In this document: one piece after another, positions 1,761 through 63,440 of the stretch
Numbering within the stretch: the first letter of the stretch is position 1
Layout of the letters: the number at the start of each line of letters is the position of its first letter
Origin: Phaeotremella fagi
Taxonomy: Eukaryota; Basidiomycota; Tremellomycetes; Tremellales; Phaeotremellaceae
Reading direction: 5' to 3'
NCBI GenBank assembly: GCA_001599715.1
Contig: BCHU01000006.1
Coordinates: forward strand, 186,001 to 250,000
DNA: 64,000 bases
Made by a program: the position numbers and the translations under genes
The notes under the pieces: generated by a model
The model's database searches: none
Told to the model about the DNA's origin: nothing
The model's input: the letters and a program-made list of their open reading frames with translations, nothing else

Positions 1761-4714
1761 TTACATCACCACACACGACCCCCCGTCATAAGAATCATCT
1801 TTTCGCCATCCCGCAGAACCCCTTCTCTTTGGAGTTTCATGACCTTTCTTCGTTGTCACGACGACTGACTGATCCTTGAAAAACTCCTCTCGAACCTCCC
1901 TCCAACCCCTTGGAATCCCTACCCGTCTCCAAGACCAAAAGGTCTTGAGCACGGGTTTTTGAGCGAATTCTCCTCCACATGGAGTGGACGAGTCGGTGTT
2001 ATACTTGAAAATGTGGGCTGCGTAACCCGTCCATCCTCGTCTGGAGCGAGAGAAGGGAGCCACAGAGTTGTAGGTTATCTGAGTGACTGCTCGACAGTCG
2101 ATGACAGATAGTTCAGCTTGAGCTTCGGATCGTCGTTTGAGGAATTCCCGCATGACTGCGTTGTTGGCAGCGGTGTTCTGGTATCAGTGCAATTCGATAT
2201 ATTAACCTACATCAGCCTCGAGAACCATCAACCTGGGACAGCCCCTGATCAATCGAACAAGAGCTTCAGGAGTGATCAATCGAGCATAACCAAGCTTGAG
2301 CTCTACGAGTCGCTTCCCAACCTCCTCCTCCGAGTCGTCTTCACCAAAGATATCTCCTGGTTCTAATCTCGTGGGAATCAAAGACTCGAGTAAGCCATCG
2401 GTTACAGCTTCGTGGATGCCGGTACCTTCCAGATCCAGCTTTTCCAGTTTTGGACAGCTGATGAACAACCTAGCTAAACCCAAAGTAGGATCGTTTTTGT
2501 GAATGTTGGCCAATTCTGGGTCACTCCTTGACGACACTGGCAATCCTGCCAATTCAAGTATAGTCATTTCGGGGAAATACCCTGTGAGGGTGATGAAGGT
2601 TCTTGAAGTGATTGAAGTGCAGCCAGAGATGTTGAGATGTTTGATCGAACTCTTCCTCACATCCTCCGCGTAGACCTCTACAAATCGCGTAAAATCTCCA
2701 TCAAGCAATGGACAGCCTTGAACGTCCAGTACTTCCAGGTGGATCAGTTTACTCGCTACCAACGGAAGAAATTCGTCAGCAGTATAACCGTACCCTTTGA
2801 CACCGCCGACGCGAAGTTCCTTCATCGAGCCCGCTTGTGACGGATTGAGCATTCGCAAGAACACGACCATGTCGCAGAGAGAAATGTTCCAACACCTGGA
2901 AACGATTAAACTCGAAAGTTTGGTGGTGGTTCGAGCAAGAGTTCGCACAACTTCACCAGTGACACATTGCAACCCTTTGAAATTGACCACCTTGAGACCA
3001 GGAGCGTTAGCAACAATGTGACAAAGATCGTCTGGTGTCAAATGACCGCAACCGCGTAGATCCAAATGAGTCAAACTGGGTAGAACGAAGTCTGTGCTTT
3101 GACTCAAAGATCGCAAGAGGGTTCCACTGGTTATACTATCCATCCCCTTTAACCTCAGATGGGTGATACAGGGTTGACTCGATTTCACCAATCGAACAAG
3201 TGTCTCGGGTTGCAAACTAGACGCAAACCCAGCAAGGTCAACGATGGGCCAAAGCTGGCCATCAAAACAAAGTTCCTGCCATTGTTTTGATACCTAAATC
3301 GTGTTAGAACGCATCCCCACTGCACACTTACTCTGCTTAGTCTGATCAATTCCCTTCTTCCAAGCTGATCCCCATCCCATCTTGGGCTACTCTGAGTTTT
3401 CCAAGATTCCACCAAGGCTTTGAACACCAAGATCTTTAGTTCATGAGGCAGCATCGTTCCAAACATATCTTCTTTAGGTTCCGATGGAGCTAGCGGCACC
3501 GTCGTGGAAACAGTCATGTTAATTGAACTTGGTAGTGGCATGGTAGAAGCTCTTGATCGTTTCATAGCCGACATTTCGTGAGGTCCAGACACGATAGTTG
3601 ATACTGCAGAAGGCGATGAGAGAGGTAGAAAATTCGGTTTGTGACGCCTGATCATCCCAGTGGTCAGAGCACGACCTTTACCTTTGTCTCTAATGATAGT
3701 CAGAGGTAGTTGAGGATCTGATTCTGGATCGGTGAGAGGGGTTTGGTGATGGTTGTTAGCGGGTGGAATATCGACCTGTGAGGCGATTTCAATTGACATC
3801 GATTCAGGGACATTGTTTCCCTGCTCAAGAGTCGATGTTCGTGTCAAACTGTTGTCTGCTTGATCGTTATTGAAGGAACGTGATGAGAACGATGCAACAG
3901 ATCGGATAGACGGTGCCAGCGACGGAGATCGAGACGAGATCGTTAACAGAGACTTGAGTCGTGATCGACGAGAGGTAACAGAAGAAGTTTCTAGATGATC
4001 TGGTGTCGACGAGGATACAGTGGAAGCTTCCTTGAAGGACGATTTTGACCTTTCAAGTTTACGACGAATCATTCCACCAAATGATGATTTCGCTCGTTTG
4101 TATCCAGGATGAGAGGGTGGAGAAATTGGGTCTGAAGGGGTTGCCGGAGTTGGTGTCACCAGCGCGTAATCAATGACTGTCACAGAATTGGACGTGTTGG
4201 TGTCGAATGTCCCTGATGAGCTGGAGATCAACGTCCCCAAATTCAAGTCATCTCGAACTAGATCTTGTTGCACAGGCTCCGTTGCTGAAGGGGAGTCGAC
4301 TAAAGGGCTCATAACCAAAGGGAGATCCAATTGGAATTGACGACTAGACCCTTCACTCTCCCTTCTCCTTTCATTCAAAGGTATGGAATCTGTATCCTGT
4401 GTGGTGACTGAATTTGTGTGAATTTTGTCAAACCCATAACTCAATCTTCTACGAGCACTTCCCAAGTCGTCTCCTACATCGATCTCTCTTGGTGAAGTTG
4501 AGATACAATGACTGATGGCATCTATCGAAGGAGGGGTTTGGATTTGGAATGAGTCTGACGAGGATGCAGTCATGATCGTGTCTGATCGATCACGAGCGAG
4601 ACGGTCTTGAAGGGGAGTTTCTGGATACCCATTAAACATTCGACTTCTCGACGGATCGTGAATCGGGATCGGAAGGGGTACAACAACTGGCTGGTGATCT
4701 TGATTTGGTGACAT
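1761..4714 (-). CDS. F-box / leucine-rich-repeat protein
   Basis: Three exons joined at introns of 38 nt (near 3294-3331) and 33 nt (2178-2210) give an in-frame CDS of about 960 residues. The first ~420 residues are Ser/Thr/Pro-rich and probably disordered. An F-box-like segment follows (LPHELKILVFKALVE ... RLSRVSKQWQELCFDGQLW), split by the first intron. Then comes a run of LRRs of the cysteine-containing type (THLDLRGCGHLT, EVLDVQGCPLL, KHLNISGCTSIT, EKLDLEGTGI). The C-terminal tail is rich in Trp and Arg (TFWSWRRVGIPRGW). By family, such proteins are substrate receptors of SCF ubiquitin ligases (Grr1/Fbxl class), binding Skp1 through the F-box. The target is unknown. The 33-nt intron is at the low limit of size, but the reading frame and the tail depend on it. 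Confidence 0.85.
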
Positions 4715-5161: not shown

Positions 5162-6456
5162 CTAAACATCAGCCATCTCAACATCTTCACTGTTTTCTTT
5201 GCCCTCCGCTGCCATTTCTTTCATTTTCTCCTCGATCTCCCCCTCCTGCCCTTCATCCACCGCCGTCTCGTCTTCCTCGTCTATTTTGAGATTCTTACGT
5301 CGAAGTGCAAAGGCGTGTTTAAGACTTGGGTAATCACCTTTCTCAATCTGATATCCCTCCCTCAGTTTCCACATGTGATTGTTGAACAAAGTGAGATTGT
5401 CGCGGGTTTGTCGATCTAAAGCCAAACAGTCCTCTTCTGTCGTTGTTCGGTCACCGAGGATCTCCCAATGTTTGATTTCTGTTTCGAAGAAAGTGGCTGC
5501 GATATCAAAATCGATCTCTTCACCCTTTTGGATTGTGAAATCGAAGTCTTTCTCCTCTTCGTATCGCTTCGTTTGGTCTGATCCGTCAGCAAAGCTAATC
5601 ATGTGACCTACCGTAAAGCCACTGGGCACCTTTTCTAGTCTGATCATAGGCGATTTGGACTTCGCGCAACAGCTCAAACAACGACTCAAATACGTTCCCA
5701 TCCGCATTTTGGAATGACTTGTTGTAGGTCTCGATCAATCGTTTCAACTCTGAGACAGTGAACGCCATAATTTCGAATGGTTCTTTGAACGGGTTAAAAA
5801 CCTCAGTTTTCCTTTCACTGGAAGTTGAAGTTGAGCCCGAGCTTGAAGAGGGACGCTTGGCTTTCGGGGGAATGAAAGGGATGTCTGAGAGGGAGTATTC
5901 TGGCTCCCAAGTGGCTTCGTTGTTGTCAACCAAAGTTTGAAGCATTGTATTGTAATTCGATAACAACTCTGCATCTTTCATCAAAGAAATACGCTTCTCC
6001 TCTCTGAACTTCTTGAAGATGTCGGCTGTACCTTCAGTTTCGGTTTCTTCGGTTTCGGTTTCTTCTAACAAGACCCCGTAACGTCTCCTCTTGGACTGGA
6101 TGACTTCGTCAAAGTCTTTTACAATCTCGTTCAGCTTGAAAGTATCCCGCATCTCAGCCGGTACGTTGTGGATCGTGGTAGCATTTTCTGCAGTATTTGA
6201 GTAAGTTGAGTTCGTGAAAGGAGTGGATAGACTCACTACCCCACCACTTTGAATGGTACTCCAAAGTTTCCTTCTCAAACTTCAAAGCGTCGATTTCAGA
6301 GTCATCGGTACCTTCAGTTTCTTCCAAATAGGCGATTTTTCCTTCGAGCGCTTTAATATGGTCATCGAGACCACAAGAGGTGGCTCGATGTCTAGAGCGG
6401 AGGATTTCAATTCTGCGACCTGCAAAGTAATCTGGAGAATCACTACCTGTGGACAT
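5162..6456 (-). CDS. Tandem paralogue family, copy A (unknown function)
   Basis: Copy A of a six-member array. Three exons with introns at 6188-6239 (52 nt) and 5578-5611 (34 nt) give 402 residues. Exon 1 starts MSTGSDSPDYF and is a predicted coiled coil (GLDDHIKALEGKIAYLEET ... DALKFEKETLEYH) ending in the family's WW pair. The first intron interrupts the codon right after WW, giving WWE-NATT. Exon 2 carries an acidic ETE repeat and the phrase PFKEPFEIMAFTVSELKRL shared with copies B and C. It ends WLY, again split in phase 1. Exon 3 has the family's FFE core (DIAATFFETEIKHWE) and a longer acidic/basic tail than the others (ending SEDVEMADV). There is no signal peptide, membrane segment or recognisable catalytic motif. 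Closest by eye to copies B and C. Function unknown. Confidence 0.75.
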
Positions 6457-6837
6457 GGTTGATGATTGGTATTTGATTGGGGATGCAAGAGATAAGAAGA
6501 AAAGAGTTTTATTCGTATGTAGCAGTATCTTGCGAATGGGAAAGGCTTCGAGCGGAAGGCATTTGAAGGCTATTCAGTGACGGTCCGCGAAAAAGTAATC
6601 TAGTGTGATGAGAAGATATGTTGTATGATCCCGAAAATATACATCACGACAGAACAAAAGAGGTAGCAGCTTCTCACAGGCCAGCCGTCCTTGCAGAGTT
6701 CCAGATAGTACGAAGACACTCACAAGTGGTTGAGTGGTGTGATTCGCTAGGAGAATTCCTTGTGGCGAGGTGCTCCGTTGCAGTAGGAAAATAATTTTAC
6801 AGTAAAGTACATAGGCCAGCGTGATCTACGCTCATAT
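6457..6837. other. Intergenic spacer between copies A and B
   Basis: 381 bp between the start of copy A and the stop of copy B. No coding sequence, remnant copy or clear repeat is visible. It presumably carries the copy A promoter. Confidence 0.5.
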
Positions 6838-7867
6838 TCATCCCCTACGGCCCAAACTGTTCAAAATTGTCGAATACGGTATGCTCTGAAAGTAATCTGA
6901 GATACAACGGAAATTGGGATGAACCACTGTCTCAAACCCCTCAGGTAAACAACCCTGCATTACCTCGTTGAAGGTTTCGACTTGCTTGTAGCTCTCAGTC
7001 CCTTCCGCCTCAGCTAAGATCTCTCCTTCGAAAAACGATTTCACAAGACTGGTTACACTGACGTCTGTGAAATCGAGCGAAAACTCCTCGTCTGCCTCTT
7101 CATCCACCTTCTCCCAAGCTGAAGAGTTACCTGTGGCATCAGTGTCACAAACTGAGCGGATGACTCACCCTCCAGCCATTGAACGGCTTTCTTTAACTCA
7201 AAACTCGCTTCGAATTCCTCAGGTACATCCTCTTCCTCTACATCTCCCCCTTCCTCCATTATATTCAACAGATCATCCATCTCACTCGTAACGTATCTCA
7301 TAAGACTCAAAGGGAACGTGAATGGATTCACAGTTGGTTGATACTCTGAGAAAGGCTTCTCCGTCTGATAATCGTCTGGACGTTTTCGTTTCCCTACTGA
7401 GGGAGTGATTGTCAGTTCGTCATCTAACAACAAGGTGGAGCCGGGTTCGAGAACCGAGTTGAGTGTGTTTTTGAGTACATTCAATTGACGAATGTCATCC
7501 CTCAGCTCTGATATCTCTTCAACCACATCAGAAGAGCTCTTTCTCAATTTCATCGATTCAATCACTCTAACAAAATCGTTTCGAACTTGTATCATTCGAT
7601 GGGTTTCTTCTTCCTCCATGTTTTCTACTAACAAATCTGGTATCTTTTGAGCGTTTTCTACCTTGTGATCAGTTGCTGCCAGACAGAGATACACATTCAC
7701 TCACTACCCCACCATTTGGAGTTTCTCTCGAGGGCTTCGAGTTCTGTTTGGATCTTCTTACTTCTTGAGATGTCAGTAACGGCACTCGTTTCTGACGCTA
7801 ATTGATCTGTGAGTTTGGATATATGGTCATCCAGCCAATTAGAATCCTCCATACTGTCTAATGACAT
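6838..7867 (-). CDS. Tandem paralogue family, copy B (unknown function)
   Basis: Three exons with introns at 7658-7707 (50 nt) and 7131-7168 (38 nt) give 313 residues. I took the ATG at 7865-7867 (MSLDSMEDSNWLDDHISKL) because it aligns with copies A and C (WL-x-x-HI). Exon 1 ends ERNSKWW and rejoins as WWENAQKIP, the same WWEN as copy A. Exon 2 is helical and charged, with a PFTFPLSLMRYVTSEMDDL segment matching the PF..P..IM block of A and C, and ends AVQWLE. Exon 3 begins GNSSAWEKVDEEADEEFSL, continues with SLVKSFFEGEIL, and matches copy C strongly (AWKAVDEDLDEEFSL). No domain or localisation signal is recognisable. Function unknown. Confidence 0.78.
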
Positions 7868-8073
7868 GTTTATTTAGATGATCTCGCGATTGAAACCACA
7901 CACAACCTTGCACACCTTAAATCAGTACACTTTCAAAAAGAAGAAATCAATTTTACAAGAAGGCCGGTCCTTCGAATAACGGGGATATATTCGAGGAACG
8001 CTAGCGTACTACTGTACATATTCCCACTACACATGATACAGTATGATACATGGGCGTACTATGCGAGATCCAT

Positions 8074-9215
8074 TCATAATTCAACCCTCCCTCCCCAACC
8101 CCCTCTACTCGAAGCACCAGACAGATCCTGACTCCTGCATTGCCTTCGAAAATCGGACAAAAACGCGAGACTGGGACTATCTGAGATTGGAAACTTTCTT
8201 GGGAGAAGAGATTTCAAATCGATATTGAAAGACTCGATATGCTTGTGATTCTCCGTCTCCGACCTCCAATTCAGCAGCTCCCTTTCGAAAAATCTGGACA
8301 CAAAGCTGATCATCTTCGAATCTCCACCGAGAAGGCTGAACTCTTCGTCTAAATCCTCGTCAACGGCTTTCCATGCTTTTGCGTTTTCTGACAATGATAT
8401 GTATGTTAGTGCCATGCGATGTCATGGGAATCCCGTCCACGTACCACGTAACCAGTCACCTGCAATCGTAACCTCTGTAAGAGCTGCTGCAACAACCAAT
8501 ATGTTCATCTCCAACTTTGATCCCGTGGCCTTTCCACAGTGGAAATCGGTGAAGGCCTCAATCAACCTGAAACTAGTTTCCTCCATAATCTCAGCGGGAA
8601 GATCAAAAGGACATACCACCTCTTCGTACTCTTCTAAAGTCTCCGAAGTTGGGAATCGACGAACGTCAACTTGAGTTCTTTGACTTCCGATGATAACTTT
8701 GAGCAAGTACGAGTATTGAGTGAAACGTCGAGCATGATCCTGTAAATTTCTCCCCTTTTCGTCCTCTGACGAGATTGAAAGTGGTAGATAACCTCTGAAG
8801 TCGCTAGAGACTTGCATTTGATGAATAATCAATCTGTCTATTTTTGATTGGGCGATTTGTTTGAAATCATTCCTGATTCGATCAAGTTTCATGATTTCAG
8901 AAATTTCGTAATCTCTTCGAGGTAGAGAAATTTGGAGTTCTTATGGTATCAGTCAAATTTGAAATTCAACTCACCTCTGCACCATTGAACGTTACTTTCG
9001 ATTTTATCTATCTCAAACTGGAGACGGTCAATCTCAGTGGTTTGAGAATCAGAAGACCCGAAAGGACTTTGACTGCCTTGAAGTGTTTTTAGATCTTCCT
9101 TCAAATGCTGCAAATGATGACTCAACCAATATGGTTCTGAATCAGTAGATTGCGCAGAGTTGGAAGGAGAGACGGAGAAGTCTAGAAACGTTAGAGGTCT
9201 GGTGGTGTGTGGCAT
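8074..9215 (-). CDS. Tandem paralogue family, copy C (unknown function)
   Basis: Three exons with introns at 8940-8974 (35 nt) and 8388-8444 (57 nt) give 349 residues. Exon 1 (MPHTTRPLTFLDF...) has the WLSHHLQHLKEDL helix and EIDRLQFEIDKIE, equivalent to EIDALKFEKETLE in copy A. The usual WW is WC here (NVQWCRE). Exon 2 carries LIIHQMQVSSDFRGYLPLSI and PFDLPAEIMEETSFRLIEAF, and ends GDWLR. Exon 3 has AWKAVDEDLDEEFSLL, FVSRFFERELLNW and a short basic Gly-rich tail. The spacing to copy B is only 206 bp. The loss of one Trp in an otherwise invariant position is the main oddity. Function unknown. Confidence 0.77.
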
Positions 9216-9524
9216 GAAGTTGAGGTGACAGTATTGTTTGTTGGTAACTTGAGACTGAATTGCATTATATCGCCATTAAAAACAAATAATTCCAACGAAG
9301 GCGCGTGCAAAATTCATCTGTAGAAGGCTCATTGGGATCAGTAAAAGATTAAAGTAGGTTTGATGTGAGGTCCCCAGGCCCGTAACGAAAGCCACTGCAA
9401 GTTGAAAATCGCAAATTAAGAAACGAGATCAATGACATTTTGTAAAAGTTAGTTATACAGCCACTAAATAAAAGTAGCCGTGTGAGTCTGCTAACACGGT
9501 CTTCCAAACACCTTCAAGATACCG
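9216..9524. other. Intergenic spacer between copies C and D
   Basis: 309 bp, AT-rich, no ORF of note. It presumably holds the copy C promoter and copy D terminator. Confidence 0.5.
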
Positions 9525-10413
9525 TCAATCTTCACTGACCATTTTAGCAATCGAATTCAGCTGATCATTAAAGATTTTGACAACCCAGGAGCCTGTTTCA
9601 GCTGCAAACATCGTATGAACCATTAGGAAAGATTCTATGTCTCGTTCGCAGGATATTTCAGGCTTTACCCTGGGCCATGCGAAGATTCTGGATACATTCC
9701 CTGTACGATTTGATCAGTTTGAGCAAAGGGGTCCAACTCACTACTCAACCATGCTTGCGATTTTGTGGCTGCCAAGACGTCCTTTTCCAACTGGACATAC
9801 TCTGCTGAATCTCCCCAAATATCAGACATAAGATCTTGGAAACACTCTCTGTCTTTCCACCACTGCTCAACCCTCTTGAATTTGAGTTCGTCTAGGGAGT
9901 CAGCGAAGACGAAGGAAATGACGGATTTGACGTCGCTTCTGCCGTTTCTTTCATCCTGAACATTCTCAAGAAGCTGGAAGGATGACGGTGTAACCTCACC
10001 ATACTTGATGAAACTCTTGCTGAATAGTATAAAGGACTTCAAGGCCGTCTTGCAAGTCTCTAGAATATGAATGTCTTGACTTTGGTTCTGTGACTGCATT
10101 GCCTTTTCAATCGACAAGAGAGCTTTACGACCCTTCAATACCGTTCGCCTGTCGCCTGTATAGTTTGCAGTTCCTGAATTTTGATTTTCCATCAAAGATG
10201 ATCCGTAAACTGGGAAATGGGTGTTCAGTTTAAAATTAGACAATACTTACGTTCCCACCAGTCCACTCCTTGGCTAAGAGTTCGAGTGACTTCATCCAGA
10301 ATATCCCCTGACTCAGCTGGAAATATCTTCCGTTGTTGCTCAAATGAAATGAGATAATCATTGAGAATTTTTGAAGCCTTGCCGACATGATCAACATCCC
10401 TGTTCTCATTCAT
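9525..10413 (-). CDS. Tandem paralogue family, copy D (unknown function)
   Basis: Three exons with introns at 10211-10251 and 9701-9741 (41 nt each) give 268 residues. Exon 1 (MNENRDVDHVGKASKIL) ends LSQGVDWWE. Exon 2 has a second Trp pair in RVEQWWKDRECFQDLM, a feature shared with copies E and F but not A-C. It also has FADSLDELKFKRVEQWW, matching FSDGLDEFKTLRAMQWW in copy E. It ends QAWLS, split in phase 1. The last exon, which is easily missed because it has no internal ATG near its start, reads RNVSRIFAWPRVKPEISCE and then a diverged core (ESFLMVHTMFAAET ... IFNDQLNSIAKM), stopping at 9525-9527. No known domain. Function unknown. Confidence 0.75.
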
Positions 10414-10836
10414 TTCAGTGGATGATGGTTATGGATAAAGTGATGGTAGTTCCAGCTATGATATGTACAGCAAAAGGCCGCCTTCTCCTCTTCTAATCCC
10501 GAGTCTTCTTTTCGGTTTACTGTAGAATGCCGATGATAACGATTTATCGGAAGGACACAAGAATTGAGAATCACCTTTCGGAATGAATTTTCCTTGCCTT
10601 CTGATCAAAAAGTCTTCAGAAGTACAGGAAATTGTATCTACAGAAGCCATTTATCTCAGAAAGTGTGCAAGTAGGGTGGCAAAATGCAAGAATCCGTGTT
10701 GCTCTTTCCAGCATGAAGAAATTTTATGCAAAGGATGAAGAACAGACAACACAATCTCCCCATCATTGATTTACGGAAACAAAACTAAATACCACCGCAA
10801 ACTTCCACATCTTCAAGCTTTCCCCCATTTACCACC
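10414..10836. other. Intergenic spacer between copies D and E
   Basis: 423 bp, the longest spacer in the array. A 64-codon minus-strand ORF at 10456-10650 (MASVDTISCTSEDFL) lacks all family hallmarks and was not called. Otherwise no structure is seen. Confidence 0.5.
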
Positions 10837-11666
10837 TCAACCTTTGAAAGCATCGGAATCAGCAATCATTCTCAACTTTGTGTTGAACGCTTTAAACCGG
10901 ACCGAGAGAGTTGGCTGCTGAAAGAAGGATCTGACGATCTCAAATGACTTCTTATTCTCATCTGTAGTAAGGTCTGGTTGCTGGTCTGGCCATTTGAGAA
11001 TGCCTTTAATATTTTCTGGAAAGGTGAGCCACCATTGGAACTTGTTTTCAACTCACCTCTAAGCCATTCACGACTTTCCTCCTTCAGAGCAAACTGAGTA
11101 GCAAGTACCTTGGAAGTGATCGACTCTGCCTGCTCTTCCTTGTAAAAATCATTGAAATTGATCCGATCTTGCCACCACTGCATTGCCCGCAAGGTTTTGA
11201 ATTCATCAAGGCCGTCGCTGAAGACATGAGAAATCCTAGACGAGGAGTCCAAACGGTTCAGAACTTCTCTGTTGAGGGTAAGATAGCAAGTGAGATTAAT
11301 TTGATAACTCTTGAGGCGTTCGATGTCTTCGGGTGTCAAGGTACAGAAGGGGTTAGGGTCGATAAACATGCTGATTAAGAATAAAGTGAAACGTGATTGA
11401 TATACTCTGTAACTATCCTTCTCAACACTCTGAGCACAAGATCGAATATTGTTTCCTGCACAGTATGAAAACTCAGTTAACCTTACCTGTTCACACTCAC
11501 GACGCCACCACTCCAAGCCAAGGCTCCCAATACGATGGTGACAGTTGGATGCTAATTGAAGGGATTCTGGATTCGTGAGCTGCCATGTATACTCGAGGAA
11601 GGAATCTTGAAAATCGAAGCATTGGTTGAAAAGAGCATCCTCATGTTCTTTCTCTGAATTTGACAT
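10837..11666 (-). CDS. Tandem paralogue family, copy E (unknown function)
   Basis: Three exons with introns at 11456-11500 (45 nt) and 11016-11056 (41 nt) give 247 residues. I chose the ATG at 11664-11666 (MSNSEKEHEDALF) because it aligns with the N-termini of D and F; an in-frame ATG 16 codons upstream exists. The first intron is a multiple of three without a stop, so an unspliced reading stays open. The conserved position after LGLEWWR supports splicing. Exon 2 has FSDGLDEFKTLRAMQWWQDR and ends SREWLR. Exon 3 reads ENIKGILKWPDQQPD and then SFEIVRSFFQQPTLS and FKAFNTKLRMI. It is the smallest member. Function unknown. Confidence 0.74.
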
Positions 11667-11999
11667 CGTCGATTTATGATATCTGTGAAGCAGGAAGGGA
11701 AGAACAAAAGACACTCTGAGCAGTTCTCAACTATTCAGTTGGAAGGAAACTCTTCCTTACAACTCAAGAGGCAACCTTTCCTTTCGAGCCAAAGTGCATG
11801 AAGGGATTGCATTTAAAAAGGAGATAATTTGCAGTGGTAGTGGCAACAAGAATGTGCCAAGCTATTGAAGACGAAAAATGGTCATCCAAGCAACAACTGT
11901 ATTCATCATTGATGTCCTCGACCTATAACACAGTAGAAAACACCACAAAAACTAGACACCAGCAATCTAAACTCCCTTACTTGAACTTAACCCGAAAAC
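11667..11999. other. Intergenic spacer between copies E and F
   Basis: 333 bp with the copy E promoter and copy F 3' flank. No gene or repeat is seen. Confidence 0.5.
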
Positions 12000-12872
12000 T
12001 CATTGAACTACTGAACTCAGCTTTTCGTTGAAATCGGCAAAGTCTTCGGACCGAAGTGGGTCTTCGAAGAATGACTTGACTACGTCGAAGGCCTTCTTTT
12101 CTTCTTCAGTGGCAAGACTGAGGCGTACAGGGTTCTCTTGAAGACTATCGAAGTTGTCTTGAAGAAAGAAACATAAAGTCAGTCCACTTGTGAGCAATAC
12201 TTTGAAAAAGAATGAAATTCTCACTCTGAAGCCAATCGTAACCTTTTCCCATTGAAGCCACTTGATCGGCAAGAGACATCATATCGCTTGATTGTTCTTG
12301 ATTCTCAATCGGTTCTTCGAGATCACAGAAAGTGCTTTGATCTTGCCACCACTGTTTCGCAAGAGCGAAACGTCTACCTTCGAAACTATCCTCAAAACTC
12401 GTAGCAGCCTTATCCATAAGTGATTCGTGTTGGTCTGACAATCCCGTCTGAGCTTTGAAATGAGCAAGGTTTCTTTGACAAATTCTCAACAATAGTGTGT
12501 CTACGTAATTGACATAGGTGAAAATGTTGGTACGTTCATCTAGGACGAGATTGATAAAGAAAAGCGTGCTTTGGGAATTTTTTACAGATTCCTCTTCACC
12601 CACTGAATTATAGTCTTCATCTTCCACGAATTGAACTCCGTTACCTGATCACGCATCAGCCTTCTATTCTCCATATTTAGGAACTCACGGTGCCACCAAC
12701 TTATTCCCTGTTCCATACGTTCTTTACTCGTAGATAAAACTTCTTTGATTGTCTCATCAGATGTTGTACCTGAAATCTTGGTCATGAATGTCTTGAAAGC
12801 TTCGTGGTATCGGTTGAAAATAATCGCGCAATCGGCTTTCTTCAGATATCGTATGTATTGTGAATCGTTCAT
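12000..12872 (-). CDS. Tandem paralogue family, copy F (unknown function)
   Basis: Three exons with introns at 12645-12688 (44 nt) and 12158-12224 (67 nt) give 253 residues. Start is MNDSQYIRYLKKADC at 12870-12872. Exon 1 ends MEQGISWWH, spliced to RNGVQFVEDEDY. Exon 2 is acidic, contains the second Trp pair RFALAKQWWQDQSTFCDL, and ends KGYDWLQ. Exon 3 has the clearest version of the family core, KAFDVVKSFFEDPL ... DFADFNEKLSSVV, and stops at 12000-12002. It is the most upstream member of the array in the direction of transcription and lies 201 bp from the stop of the ABC1 kinase gene. No domain assignable. Function unknown. Confidence 0.76.
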
Positions 12873-21884: not shown

Positions 21885-22352
21885 ATGAAAGAATCATTCA
21901 GAAGCGCTACAGCCAAATCCAAAAAGGATTGTCCAGAAATAATCAAAAAGATAGTCTCCGAAATAGGAATCAGAACATATTTGAGAAAAGACTATGAAAC
22001 ACAGACGTCAGAACTGCTAAATCATGATTGTAAGGTGATCAAACCTGGAGAATGTACTTCTACTAGACACGAGGGGTTTTATGAAATCAAATTAACGGTT
22101 GATGAAGATGGGGAATACTTGTTTCAGTATTGGACTACTCAGCCTTGGGTTGAGGTTGAGGTTGAGGTTGAGGTTGAGGTTGAGGTTGAGGTTGAGGTTG
22201 AGGTTGAGGTTGAGGTTGAGGTTGAGGTTGAGGTTGGGGAGGGTGCAGAGTCTACATTGGAGGGTGAGACGAAGGGGAGTATTGGTGTTGGTGTCGAGAG
22301 TGCTGATACAGCTGATGAGACGCTACCTGAGAGCCTGCTTACTGAAACTTAG
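21885..22352 (+). CDS. Small hypothetical protein with (Val-Glu)14 tract
   Basis: Intronless ORF of 155 residues starting MKESFRSATAKSKKDC. The first ~85 residues look like a normal globular segment (EIGIRTYLRKDYETQTSELL; EGFYEIKLTVDEDGEYLFQY). It then runs into fourteen Val-Glu dipeptides encoded by a GTTGAG repeat, and a Gly/Glu/Thr tail. It is convergent with the 7TM gene, with stops about 92 bp apart. No family recognised. It could be a real species-specific gene or an ORF sustained by the repeat. Confidence 0.4.
   Translation: MKESFRSATAKSKKDCPEIIKKIVSEIGIRTYLRKDYETQTSELLNHDCKVIKPGECTSTRHEGFYEIKLTVDEDGEYLFQYWTTQPWVEVEVEVEVEVEVEVEVEVEVEVEVEVEVGEGAESTLEGETKGSIGVGVESADTADETLPESLLTET
22149..22232. 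repeat. Hexanucleotide microsatellite (GTTGAG)14
   Basis: Fourteen perfect GTTGAG units in 84 bp, in frame, encoding Val-Glu repeats in the small ORF. Unit-length change would keep the frame, so copy number may vary between strains. Confidence 0.95.
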
Positions 22353-49055: not shown

Positions 49056-51918
49056 TTACATCGCCTCTCCATCTAAATCCTCATCTTCTTGATCCATATC
49101 CATCGCCTCACCGTCCAAATCCTCCATAGCCTCACCATCAAGATCCTCCATAGCTTCTCCATCTAAATCTTCATCTCCATTACCGCCGTCCATAACCTCT
49201 CCATCCAAATCTTCATCACCTGCTTTCACCGAGGGCACAATGACACTAGAAGCGGAAAGAGGAACGAAGGAAGACTTGAATCCTGATTTCCTAAATTTGA
49301 CTTCCTCTTTCTTCTCAGGTAATTTCTGTTCCACAACTTCCACATCAACAGGTTGAGCTTTCTTGTATAAATCATCGAGAGTCTTGGTTCCATCAAGTAA
49401 ATCTCGAAGAGTGTCACTGACATCGGGATTGAATACGATCCTGAAGTCGTTCTCAGTTGAAATCCCCGAAACATTGGGTGAACATACCATCTCTCCCAAA
49501 TTGTCAGAACAGCAACTACCTGTTGTTTGAATACGTCCGCACTAATCTTTCCCGAATATGCTAATAGACTAGCATAAACTCCTGAGAGATGGGCAAAGAT
49601 CTTTGGAAGTGATAATTCGAATGCTTGACGATATTTCCAAACGTTAGGTAGTGATGATGCCTAAGGGGCATTAATATCAAATGACGATACCTGTTTTAAA
49701 CGAAAGAACTCACTGAATTATGTAGTATATCGGATATCAAATGCAATCTAGCTATTTTCCTTGGGACAGGTGTGTTATCAAGTTTTAAACTTTGGCAAAT
49801 GATTTCGGTAACCTATCCAACGTGAGTTTCAAACCCTTAACAAGATTCGTGAACCAGCTCACCTCCTCAGCAGCTTCCGCACGTTTCATAGCGAATTCCA
49901 TAGCTCTAGCTATCTCCACACGTTTTCCTGACATTGCACGTAAAATAGCTTCCAGCCTTTTTCGCGCCAATTTGCCAAGTTTACCTTTGGCTGTTCGTTC
50001 TTTCTCTGAATCTTCTGCCGAATCTGATGAAAAGAGAGAGGCGTATCCCTGTGCCGTTTCAGTCAGCAAAAAGATTGAATTGGGATTAGGGTAAGAAAAC
50101 ATACGGTATCCTCGAATTCCTCTGGTGGTGGAGTGGGGATTCTATATTTCCTATCTAGAGATGATTTGTAGAGATGATAGTCGGGTAACTAGAATCATAA
50201 GCTTTCTTTTTACTTTGAAAACGAAAGTAGTGACTTACCGACTCATCAAACAAAAATTTAAATTTTTCATTATCCTTCTCTCGATTTTTCAGCAAATCTT
50301 CAAAAGATTTCCCATGCTCTTTAACACGACTGACTACCGCTTTAATAAACTTTTCCTGCTCGTCAGGAACAGTCGATAACCATTTCTGTCTTGCACTGAG
50401 TTTTTTCGGTGGTGGTGTTCTTGACCTCGATGACGAGTCAGATTCCGAATCTGAAGGAAATGACTTTTTGCGCGATTTCTTTGGAGGTGATCTTGAACGA
50501 GATGATGATGAAGTAGAGCGATCTCTTCTTTTATGACTTGACTTTCTTTGTGGTGATCTAGATCTGGACCTTGATCTACCTCTTCGTGATTCTGATGGTC
50601 AGCCGTGGCCATACTAATAACTTACCATAGATTGCTTTTTGTGGGATTGAAATCGCTTTTCCCCAACCTACTCTGAGTGCATTGCCTCCCCATTCCAACC
50701 CATCATATTCTTTCAGACATCGCTCAGCATCAGGTCTTTTCATAAAGGACACAAATCCAGTTAAAGTCTTGCCACGACCCCCAAACGCTCCACCGTCATC
50801 ATCACCACGAGCTATAGCTTATGAGCGTCCATGCAACCCGCTTTTTCCGATGTACTCACGCCACATTATCTTCACCGTTCCAACATCCCCCATCTTAGCG
50901 AAGAATAACCCAAAACTCTCCTCAGTGATGTTTGAGGGTAGATTTGACTAATAGTCAGTTCCGTATACGAAGGGCAAACTCACGATAAACAGATTGGTTG
51001 ACTGAATCCACATTAGTCAAGTGTACAATCTGGAAGTGCTGATCACTCACCTCATCCTCAGTCGGTCTTCTTCCACCTTTCTCACGTTCAAAAGCAGCCA
51101 AAGCAGAAACAGAAGACCCCTCCACTAAAACCATCCATCAACATAATCCTCTCCAAAACCACAAACCCAAACCTACATTTAGCAGCATGACCCAATCTAG
51201 CTTCTCTAGCAATCTGATCCCTACCTCATCAGCTTGAAACCCTAAGCTTTAAACCTACCGTTTGATCTCTTCAAGAAATGAATCCATAGCTCTTTTACCC
51301 TTGGGTTTAGGTCCGGGAGGTGGAGATGGTATTCTAGGTTTGAACGCAGCAACAGGGGGCTATTTTTTATTCAATAAAGTGCTTAGGATGGATGAAAGGA
51401 AGCTTACCCTCGAATAACCCATTGCAGCAGGACCTCTAGGTGGACCAGAGGGTATAGCCTGAACAGGCTGTTGATAACTCCCTCCACCAGCTCTGACAAA
51501 TCCACCACCAGGTCCTATAGGTCTACCTCTGAATCCATTATATCCACCAGAGGAAGTGGAGCCTTGAGTATTGGTATCAGGTCCATCGAAAGCTTCTGCG
51601 TATTCTGCCATTACCAAAGCAGCAGCTCTGTTTCTTTATCAGCTTCAAATCGATTTAAGAATGGATTGGTTAACTGACTTCTCTTCTTCTATACGTTTCT
51701 TCTCTTCTGCTTCTCTCTCGAGATCTTTTTTCGTCTTTTTAGTATTTCCCATAGCGAAGGTTTTGGTTTTCAGGGGGTTCAACTCGATAACTTTCTGCTT
51801 TGGATTGAGAATCGGTCGGGTTTGAAAGAAAGACGATTTAACTTACTCTACTACTCCCACCTTCATCTTCACCTTCTGAATCTGAACCCCATTTGGATAA
51901 ATCCAATTTTCTCGACAT
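49056..51918 (-). CDS. U2 snRNP-associated SURP protein (U2SURP/SR140)
   Basis: Multi-exon gene from ATG 51916-51918 (MSRKLDLSKWGSDSEGEDE). Domain order is typical. A disordered Gly-rich N-terminus comes first, then an RRM (TNLFVANLPSNITEESFG, FFAKMGDVGTVKIMWPRGDD, LTGFVSFMKRPDAERCLKEY, ALRVGWGKAI). An RS/Ser-rich linker follows, then a SURP motif (EKFIKAVVSRVKEHGKSFED, KFKFLFDE). A CID/RPR domain comes next (RKIARLHLISDILHNS, SLPNVWKYRQAFELSLPKIF). The tail ends in tandem EDLDGEAM repeats. SR140 associates with the U2 snRNP and acts in early spliceosome assembly and alternative splicing. The start MSRKLDLSKWGSD also fits. An acidic repeat rather than an RS tail ends the protein. Confidence 0.9.
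49059..49213 (-). repeat. Tandem EDLDGEAM-coding repeat in U2SURP C-terminus
   Basis: About five near-identical units of roughly 24-27 bp encode ED-LDGEAM, some separated by short acidic inserts (DGGNGD, DMDQED). The repeat reads directly up to the stop codon. Confidence 0.85.
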
Positions 51919-60863: not shown

Positions 60864-63440
60864 CTAAATCTTAACACCTTCCACAACCTCTCTAATCTCT
60901 TCAACCTTCTTGCCAACATCCTCAAAAGTCTTGATAGCTTTTTTAGAACTTTCCACCAAACCCTCAGATTTCTTAACTACCAAACCCCGCTCATCCAACG
61001 CGATCTTGAATCTCTCTTTCAAATCCCACGAAGCTAATCTCATAACTTTTCTCGTTTCTTTCGAGATTCTCTCGTTGAAGAAGATGATCCAATTACCGTC
61101 GTTGTCATTGTCGACATTCGGTGATCTACTGAGATCAGATTTAAGATGACGACCGACATTCTTTGGTACACTGTTTGGAAGGTCGTAGATGATATATCCT
61201 ATTGTTCCTATTGAAATCACTCCTATAACCGGACCTGCCCATTTCTGAACATTAGGGTTCGAGATCATATCAGAAACTTTGACTACTGAATTGACGAAAC
61301 TGTGTAAACCCATAGTTTTCGATCCAAGTGATAAAGCACCGAAAGCAAGTGAAGCAGCACCAAGACCTGTGATCTCAGTTCCGTAACTGATTAAATCTCG
61401 TGATGGCGATGAAGTGGTTTGGGGTACACTCGAACGAGCTAGATGTAACGTATGTTGAATATCGAATATATCACTGAACCCAACATCCGATAATCGAGGT
61501 TGGAAACCGACAGTTGAGATTTTACGTGAAAACATTGCGTTAGGATTGAATACCCTATTCGAACGTTCCACATCAGCTGGTAGATGTCGATCACCGAGTT
61601 TGATAACACAATCAACCCCTTCAGTCGTTAATTTTCTAGCATCGTTCTCCGCTAGTGAAACGGCGAAATCCAATGATTTAAGTAAAACTTGTTTAACCTC
61701 TTTGGCGTAATCCCAGACACCTAGCAAACCGGGATAAAGGGGTAATTCAAGACCAGAAGATGGGGTGGCAAGTTCTCCACGACCGATACGTTCCAATGCA
61801 CGTTCCATGAAAAGTGTTGAACGAGTTTTGGACTGATCGACGACTTTCTCTTCTTCGTTGACTAAACCTTCCTCAAGACTTTCACGACCTTTTGTCATTT
61901 TTTCCACGACAGGTTTAACACGATTCAATTCAGCTAAAGCAGAATCTCTTTCTTGAATCGCGAGAAGGGTATTGGCTTGAGCGAGCAGTTCAACATCAGC
62001 CAATAAATGGGTGACGTAATTTTGAGCAGGTCCTAATTTAGATTTCGATCTGTTGACCAATACAAAGGATCGAAGTGATTGTTCGAGATGAGCGAAAGCG
62101 CTATCTGATTCATCACCGAAAGCGACTTGAGCTGAATCGACGAAATGAACCAAATCAGCAGCGTCCTCGTATGTCTTTGGTGACAACTGTTTGATCTGTT
62201 CTAAAACCAGTCGACGACATCTTTCCTTGTCTCTGATTTGATCGAATCGATTGACGACAATGAAAAGATGGGCTTTTTCGTGTCCCGCTTGCCAAATGAA
62301 TTCTTTGGCAGAGAGGGTGAAATGATTAGCGGCAGAGACGACGAAGACGACGACATCGATTTCTTCTTGTCTAGCAAAGTTGGCGGTTGTCTTGATTGAA
62401 TCCCGATTAAGACCTGGGGCGTCGATGAGAGAAATATCAACAACACCGTTGTGAAGAATTGATGGTGCAGATGGTGCCTCTTGCAAGAAAACTTTCAATG
62501 GTGGAGAAGAAGCATCAGCATCGGTTACCAATTCCTCCAATCGTGAAAGTGGTTCGACAGTGAAAGTCGATTTATCACCAGCATCATATTTTTCACCGAG
62601 AACATGAATCTCTTCAACACCCTCATTCTCTTTCGCACTAACAACCTCTACGAATCGAGTAGTCAAAGGCTGTTGATCGGTTGGCATAACCTCGTTTCGT
62701 CGAAGTAGAGCATTGATGAGTGTAGATTTACCAGCGTTGAGATCACCGGTGACTAAGACTCTTGATTGAGCGTCGTGGATACGAGTTTGTAGATTGACCA
62801 AATGATCTAAAGAAGCTGATAAACGAGTATCGAGTAAGGCTGAGATGGATGATTTTTCAAGATGAGAAATGAGAGTTTTGGCTTGACGCGCAGCTCCCAT
62901 ATTAAGATCTAAACGAAGGATGGAAAATTCATCGTTCTCCGTCGAAGCGGTGGTTTCCGATTCGACTTCATTGGCATCAGGTGCAAAAGTGAGTGAACGT
63001 TTAAAAGTTCTTCTAGTTGGTGTTGACGCGATGACGACGTTCGTTGATGCCGATGGTTCATCTGCGAAAGTCAAGGTTCTTCTGTTTGATGGTCTGGTTG
63101 GTGTTGAAGAAGAAGAAGGCGCCTCGATGGGTTTAAGAGAAGGATATCGAACGGTCCATTGATCGTTATTGAAATTTCTTAAATCCGCAACAAGATATTT
63201 TGAAGATTCGATAGCGTTACTTAATCTGTCAAGTGTGAGTGGGATTCGGAGTTGATCAAATGGCAAGTGTACCTACCGATCTCTCTTCTGTTCGTAATCT
63301 CTGACAACATTATCAGCTATGACTCTAGCTTGAGCTAATTCATTTTGTGAACCGATGTGAGATTCTTTTTGAGGAGTATCGGGGGTGGCGGGGTGGGTGA
63401 GGGATTGAGATTGGGGGGTTGAAGGATGGAATGGTTGCAT
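60864..63440 (-). CDS. FZO1: Mitofusin FZO1 (mitochondrial outer-membrane fusion GTPase)
   Basis: Two exons joined at a 51-nt intron give 841 residues, from ATG 63438-63440 (MQPFHPSTPQSQSLTHPATP) to the stop at 60864-60866. The first intron joins VRDYEQKRDR to LSNAIESSKYLV. The dynamin-like GTPase domain has GDLNAGKSTLINALL (P-loop), DAPGLNRDS (G3) and NRFDQIRD (G4, NKxD variant). Helical repeats (KPVVEKMTKGRESLEEGLVN) flank it. A hydrophobic double-spanning region lies near the C-terminus: TEITGLGAASLAFGALSLG and WAGPVIGVISIGTIGYIIYD. A C-terminal coiled coil follows (FEDVGKKVEEIREVVEGV). FZO1 tethers and fuses mitochondrial outer membranes. The size matches yeast Fzo1 (about 855). Relatively intron-poor for this window. 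Confidence 0.95.

Follow-up and report, generated by a model that had tools for sequence, protein, structure and literature searches.

A tandem array of six fast-diverging genes without a recognised domain in Phaeotremella fagi

Introduction

The described systems closest to the locus reported here are the lineage-specific genes of Neurospora and the fungal NLR repertoires. The former are reported to aggregate near telomeres and to cluster with HET-domain genes (PMC10684091), and a survey of fungal NLR genes identified none in tremellomycetes (PMC4986451). We analysed a 64-kb stretch of Phaeotremella fagi contig BCHU01000006.1 (positions 186,001 to 250,000, hereafter the window), which contains an array of six head-to-tail, intact predicted genes on the minus strand (copies A-F, 12872-5162), and we found two further copies (G and H) on other contigs. 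These copies spread by tandem and dispersed duplication of DNA with their introns retained, and the pair B and G is under constraint. As a whole, we read the eight genes as a lineage-restricted family of putative helical interaction modules, divided into two subfamilies and spread by tandem DNA duplication, a reading to which we give about an even chance of being right.

Results

Array layout and gene models

The array spans 7.7 kb and lies ~190 kb from a contig end. Each gene was modelled with three exons, giving products of 247-403 amino acids.

12872-12000, minus strand: copy A (subfamily I), exons 12872-12689, 12644-12225 and 12157-12000, 253 amino acids
11666-10837, minus strand: copy B (subfamily I), exons 11666-11501, 11455-11057 and 11015-10837, 247 amino acids
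10413-9525, minus strand: copy C (subfamily I), exons 10413-10251, 10209-9742 and 9700-9525, 268 amino acids
9215-8074, minus strand: copy D (subfamily II), exons 9215-8975, 8912-8445 and 8387-8074, 340 amino acids
7867-6838, minus strand: copy E (subfamily II), exons 7867-7705, 7657-7169 and 7130-6838, 314 amino acids
6456-5162, minus strand: copy F (subfamily II), exons 6456-6237, 6187-5612 and 5577-5162, 403 amino acids
9525-12872, minus strand: subfamily I block (A, B and C), from the tree, identities and blastp
5162-9215, minus strand: subfamily II block (D, E and F), from the tree, identities and blastp

Start-to-start spacing from A to F was 1206, 1253, 1198, 1348 and 1411 bp, and the intergenic gaps inside the array measured 206-423 bp. 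The rebuilt models reproduced the six minus-strand genes that a first-pass annotation of the window had placed at 5162..12872, coordinates included. A scan of the window with the family's own profile returned 17 exon pieces (E<=1.6e-10), all overlapping the array, and no seventh copy (next-best match E=0.4).

Copies elsewhere in the genome and constraint on the B/G pair

Single proteins (copies A-F and H) and a group I consensus served as queries against the genome (24 contigs, 22.6 Mb); these searches score the best candidates only, and remoter copies may exist. Two further copies were found, both open and with introns at the same sites.

C2:2192967-2193824, plus strand: copy G, three-exon plan, 57% identical to B
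C10:1110242-1109305, minus strand: copy H, three-exon plan

A match on contig C1 reached E=1.26. The DNA pattern TGGTGGNNNNGTRAGT occurred at 52 genome sites, versus 30 for the reversed control; a family-profile scan of all 52 recognised six (6/52) as family members (A, B, C, E, F and G) and no new copies.

B and G are ~75% alike as DNA over window positions 10798-11523 and 11671-11738. The first of these stretches takes in both introns, exons 2 and 3, the last part of exon 1 and ~40 bp of sequence beyond the stop; the second comprises 68 bp directly before the start (reaching ~72 bp upstream). Most of exon 1 is unalignable as DNA. Since introns and flanks are alike, copying took place at the DNA level and not via mRNA. 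The proportion of synonymous differences (pS) between B and G was 0.44 and that of nonsynonymous differences (pN) 0.26, with a bootstrap interval of 0.09 to 0.29 for pS-pN and a nonsynonymous to synonymous rate ratio (dN/dS) of 0.47. Because of this ratio and the retention of both introns, B and G are real genes under relaxed purifying selection, their protein loosely kept. The first-pass annotation had named a dN/dS test as a check, and the ratio obtained is not above 1. B/G was the sole pair that gave a usable rate estimate; six other computed pairs had pS of 0.73-0.82, with synonymous sites saturated or nearly so.

The very low identity of the neighbouring copies and the relaxed constraint on B and G could also describe dispensable genes sliding into decay without lasting function. 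Against this, all eight models (8/8, A-H) have open frames with GT..AG introns and pS clearly exceeds pN in B/G, and we find decay hardly credible. Duplication beyond the array followed by divergence of the copies, as in G and H, makes birth-and-death evolution of the family plausible.

Intron positions

All 16 introns of the eight copies are in phase 1 (16/16). In the array models intron 1 follows W-W-x (W-C-x in D) and intron 2 follows W-L-x (6/6); the first intron site of H reads W-M-x. The eight-copy alignment puts intron 2 in a single column in 8/8 copies and intron 1 in 7/8, D being shifted by a gap, and most copies show W-[W/L]-x|x-N surroundings at both exon joins. The Trp pair, which had been claimed for all six array genes, is W-C in D and intact in the other five. 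The W-W/W-L plan guided the manual choice of some joins (those of D, F and H, and several acceptors), and the agreement of intron columns is therefore not fully independent of it. Joins were also enumerated blind to the plan, with starts set by hand and acceptors limited to CAG and TAG. For five array copies (A, B, C, E, F) this recovered the modelled W-W-x donor of intron 1, and for four (A, B, C, E) the W-L-x donor of intron 2. Elsewhere it departed from the models: extra introns were placed in A, C and E, another acceptor was chosen for intron 2 of A and of E, downstream joins of F differed, and no model resulted for D. A, D and H each contain a single AAG or GAG acceptor (intron 2 of A, AAG; intron 1 of D, GAG), and intron 2 of F (34 nt) is the least certain join.

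Because both introns share a phase and have similar surroundings, each gene may be an old internal duplication of two W-[W/L]-x|x-N units. This is a suggestion with weak statistics: in comparisons of one half with the other the real score was reached by 1/80 (all copies), 6/80 (subfamily I) and 1/80 (subfamily II) shuffles, and in nine exon-against-exon comparisons of 30 shuffles each it was reached by 0, by 1 and, in the remaining seven, by 2 to 26.

Divergence and two subfamilies

Identity among the array copies was 15-29%, in keeping with the very low overall identity that had been read from the neighbouring genes. Only M1, W59, L121, L186, W199-L200, F232 and F244-N245 (A numbering) are invariant across the six, and the conserved C-terminal motif includes [FY]F...FN.

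The array is not a set of six equal copies and consists of two blocks of three closer relatives. Identity between subfamilies I and II was 14-20%; blastp grouped A, B, C, G and H apart from D, E and F and found no match between the groups at E<=10. The tree recovered these two groups, strongly supported, and its end branches were long (median 1.4 changes per column) and its inner forks mostly open; the program warned that long-branch joins may be false. The split mirrors physical order, A-C and then D-F.

Profiles of the two subfamilies aligned co-linearly in hhalign with a probability of 26.8% (P=0.0007) and a score of 33.8; the highest score among 200 column shuffles was 24.9. Single-sequence tests were mixed: the group I profile scored D, E and F at values reached by 2, 14 and 8 of 500 shuffles, and the group II profile scored A, B, C, G and H at values reached by 0, 2, 179, 58 and 55 of 500. 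Subfamilies I and II could accordingly be two unrelated orphan families lying side by side by chance, as their low mutual identity, the lack of any blastp match across groups, the uneven single-sequence tests and the modest hhalign probability would all allow. Such a coincidence would have to account for a co-linear score above 200/200 column shuffles, for intron columns, phase and W-[W/L]-x|x-N context common to both groups (partly by choice of joins) and for the same strand and spacing in both blocks, and we hold it to be quite improbable. From the profile-profile alignment and the shared introns, the two subfamilies are likely, though not proven, to be one family.

Searches for known families and homologues

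None of the eight copies had a Pfam match past the cut-off among matches listed up to E=10 (best E=0.0074), and no NACHT, NB-ARC, HET or F-box domain was found among them. The best NCBIfam match of the six array copies was only E=0.036. A protein-database search with the six-copy profile, in which only the 7998 best candidates were scored, gave no homologue at E<=1, and one with the subfamily I profile gave none at E<=10; the method sees only proteins of a limited range of lengths that have five-residue words in common with the query, and subfamily II was covered only within the six-copy profile. Matches of the subfamily profiles to PDB sequences (best E=0.057 and 0.11) were taken as chance. 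Among the 120 best matches listed for the mitofusin gene of the window (60864-63266, minus strand), the closest were Tremellales proteins, with entries named for Kwoniella, Cryptococcus, Kockovaella, Tremella and Naematelia at 61-67% identity and none closer, as expected of a Tremellales-type host that has no near relative in this database. The negative result was obtained although the database holds many Tremellales, with proteins of Kwoniella, Cryptococcus, Tremella and Naematelia among them. Our literature search met no recognised description of the family in the portions of text it covered, PMC12262581 included, and we do not claim its absence from print.

The view of the array as an unrecognised, fast-diverging tandem family was thus upheld, with no Pfam or NCBIfam family and no database homologue, and none of the Pfam, NCBIfam, PDB or protein-database searches placed the copies in unrelated known families, the outcome that had been named as refuting it. 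As expected of a lineage-specific tandem family, the copies are tandem paralogues with a shared gene structure and have no outside homologue detectable at this limited sensitivity. Restriction to the lineage is the weaker claim, suggested by the negative searches. The genes could instead belong to an old conserved fungal family that has diverged past detection by sequence and is not new in this lineage. The long end branches, a search tool that relies on short exact words and structure models too weak to decide would fit that account, but profiles of two alignments matched nothing in a database rich in Tremellales, and no PDB or Pfam match went beyond chance. We consider an old family a fairly unlikely explanation, and retain the lineage-restricted family as the preferred one.

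Product properties

The first-pass annotation had described the products as helical and without membrane segments. Hydropathy showed no membrane-like stretch (highest 19-residue Kyte-Doolittle mean 1.57, in D; no dedicated membrane or signal-peptide predictor was run). Membrane-type spore killers such as wtf have several transmembrane segments, a feature that the family lacks by hydropathy. Net charge ranged from -5 to -36, and F has an acidic tail. AlphaFold, run on contiguous exons, produced two models with helices only, in line with the helical prediction at a low mean predicted local distance difference test score (pLDDT, 63.4 and 58.8). A structure prediction with fold search had also been proposed as a check; Foldseek, with the first model only, found no solved fold in the PDB at E<=0.001. 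The products are probably soluble, acidic, mostly helical and intracellular, which is supported, at a weaker level than the duplication history. Exon 2 of E contains KRKRP plus an NPF.FP stretch and exon 2 of F contains KAKRP; in our reading KRKRP and KAKRP resemble nuclear localisation signals, and a nuclear role is possible for subfamily II.

Neighbourhoods of the copies

Copy G sits between open reading frames (ORFs) for a NuBaID zinc-finger protein and Gaa1. Beside it (contig C2, region L050) are small ORFs without Pfam families at 2437-3000, 3293-3718, 4090-4515 and 6231-6851. The first two are related to each other (E ~1e-8); used as a query against the genome, the second retrieved just this pair. 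No relation of these orphan ORFs to the array family was seen. Long, diverged ORFs with F-box-like N-termini lie at C7:303-320 kb, C6:985-994 kb and C10:1090-1112 kb (in region L051, at 1265-2431, 2659-3882 and 6077-7177). A query from one of them returned 30 genome pieces at E<=0.1, mostly in these three clusters, and Pfam found no F-box in the three ORFs tested, the name being a reading of the N-terminus. With these ORF clusters beside G and H, the array is thus one of several fast-diverging tandem families in the genome.

Left of the array, the window has an ORF at 3185-4714 (minus strand) with the F-box-like stretch LPHELKILVFKAL, again a reading without a Pfam match; a leucine-rich-repeat ORF (2202-3215) comes after it. 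At 22148-22236, 14.8 perfect copies of GGTTGA within an ORF encode a long Val-Glu run, and a minus-strand ORF contains a 24-base repeat at 49099-49169, present in three copies with 82% matches, that encodes E-D-L-D-G-E-A-M repeats.

Discussion

As a lineage-restricted family of helical interaction modules, the genes would have been supplied by local, DNA-level tandem duplication with introns retained, and would have diverged into two subfamilies, each with three adjacent members in the array, with G and H lying singly on other contigs. Purifying selection would keep the helical core and the Trp sites, exposed surfaces would drift or diversify, and the products would act as small helical modules with one or a few protein binding partners. 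Several points weigh against this reading. Partner binding is conjectured from the helical content together with the lack of a recognised enzyme domain. The structure models are weak, and we claim no fold from them. Relatives could be missed by a word-based homologue search, and sequence ties the two subfamilies together only weakly, in view of the hhalign probability and the mixed single-sequence tests. There is also no shared promoter motif: no 7-mer is common to at least 5 of the eight upstream regions, and 7-mers and 8-mers there showed nothing beyond chance, although 6-mers were mildly over-represented (13 found in at least 6 of the eight regions versus 3.5 expected).

The same tandem, fast-diverging genes without a known domain or membrane-like stretch might instead serve recognition or conflict inside the cell (self/nonself, defence or selfish killer-rescue), with their variability maintained by diversifying selection, and G does adjoin orphan ORFs and H lies within a tandem cluster of F-box-like ORFs. 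However, B/G dN/dS does not exceed 1, neither a toxin-antidote pairing nor a domain of toxin-like, membrane or known effector type was seen, and the argument from neighbours is one of association only; we judge a conflict role unlikely. The self/nonself, selfish-element and environmental-response roles listed in the first-pass annotation are conjectural here. More specifically, the eight genes might supply Tremellales with a recognition repertoire of their own inside the cell, in which paired-Trp helical modules form the variable binding surfaces, a counterpart of the NLR/HET repertoires of other fungi; we regard this as a long shot. In the context of the NLR survey and the Neurospora clusters, a recognition role may be worth testing, and no more.

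The lineage-restricted family proposed here is new to the libraries searched, and its kind (lineage-restricted, tandem and fast-diverging) is well known and common in fungi. It is also compact, as six of the eight copies found could be removed by a single 7.7-kb deletion. Were a recognition or conflict role true, the family would offer a handle on how the cytoplasm is policed in a group of fungi for which a survey identified no NLR genes; if not, it would be a further example of the rapid origin of new intracellular fungal proteins.

Compared with known systems, the family is like the Neurospora orphan genes (PMC10684091) in being taxonomically restricted, with few or no domains and some members near fast-changing intracellular families, and unlike them in that the array lies ~190 kb from a contig end and not, as reported for the Neurospora genes, near telomeres. 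Fungal NLR/STAND repertoires (PMC4986451) share with it an intracellular location, paralogous expansion and fast divergence, whereas the array family has no NACHT, NB-ARC or repeat domain in Pfam. Within the same genome, although the family profile matched only H among the ORFs fetched around H, the array resembles the F-box-like clusters on C7, C6 and C10 in being tandem and strongly diverged, and H itself lies inside the C10 cluster.

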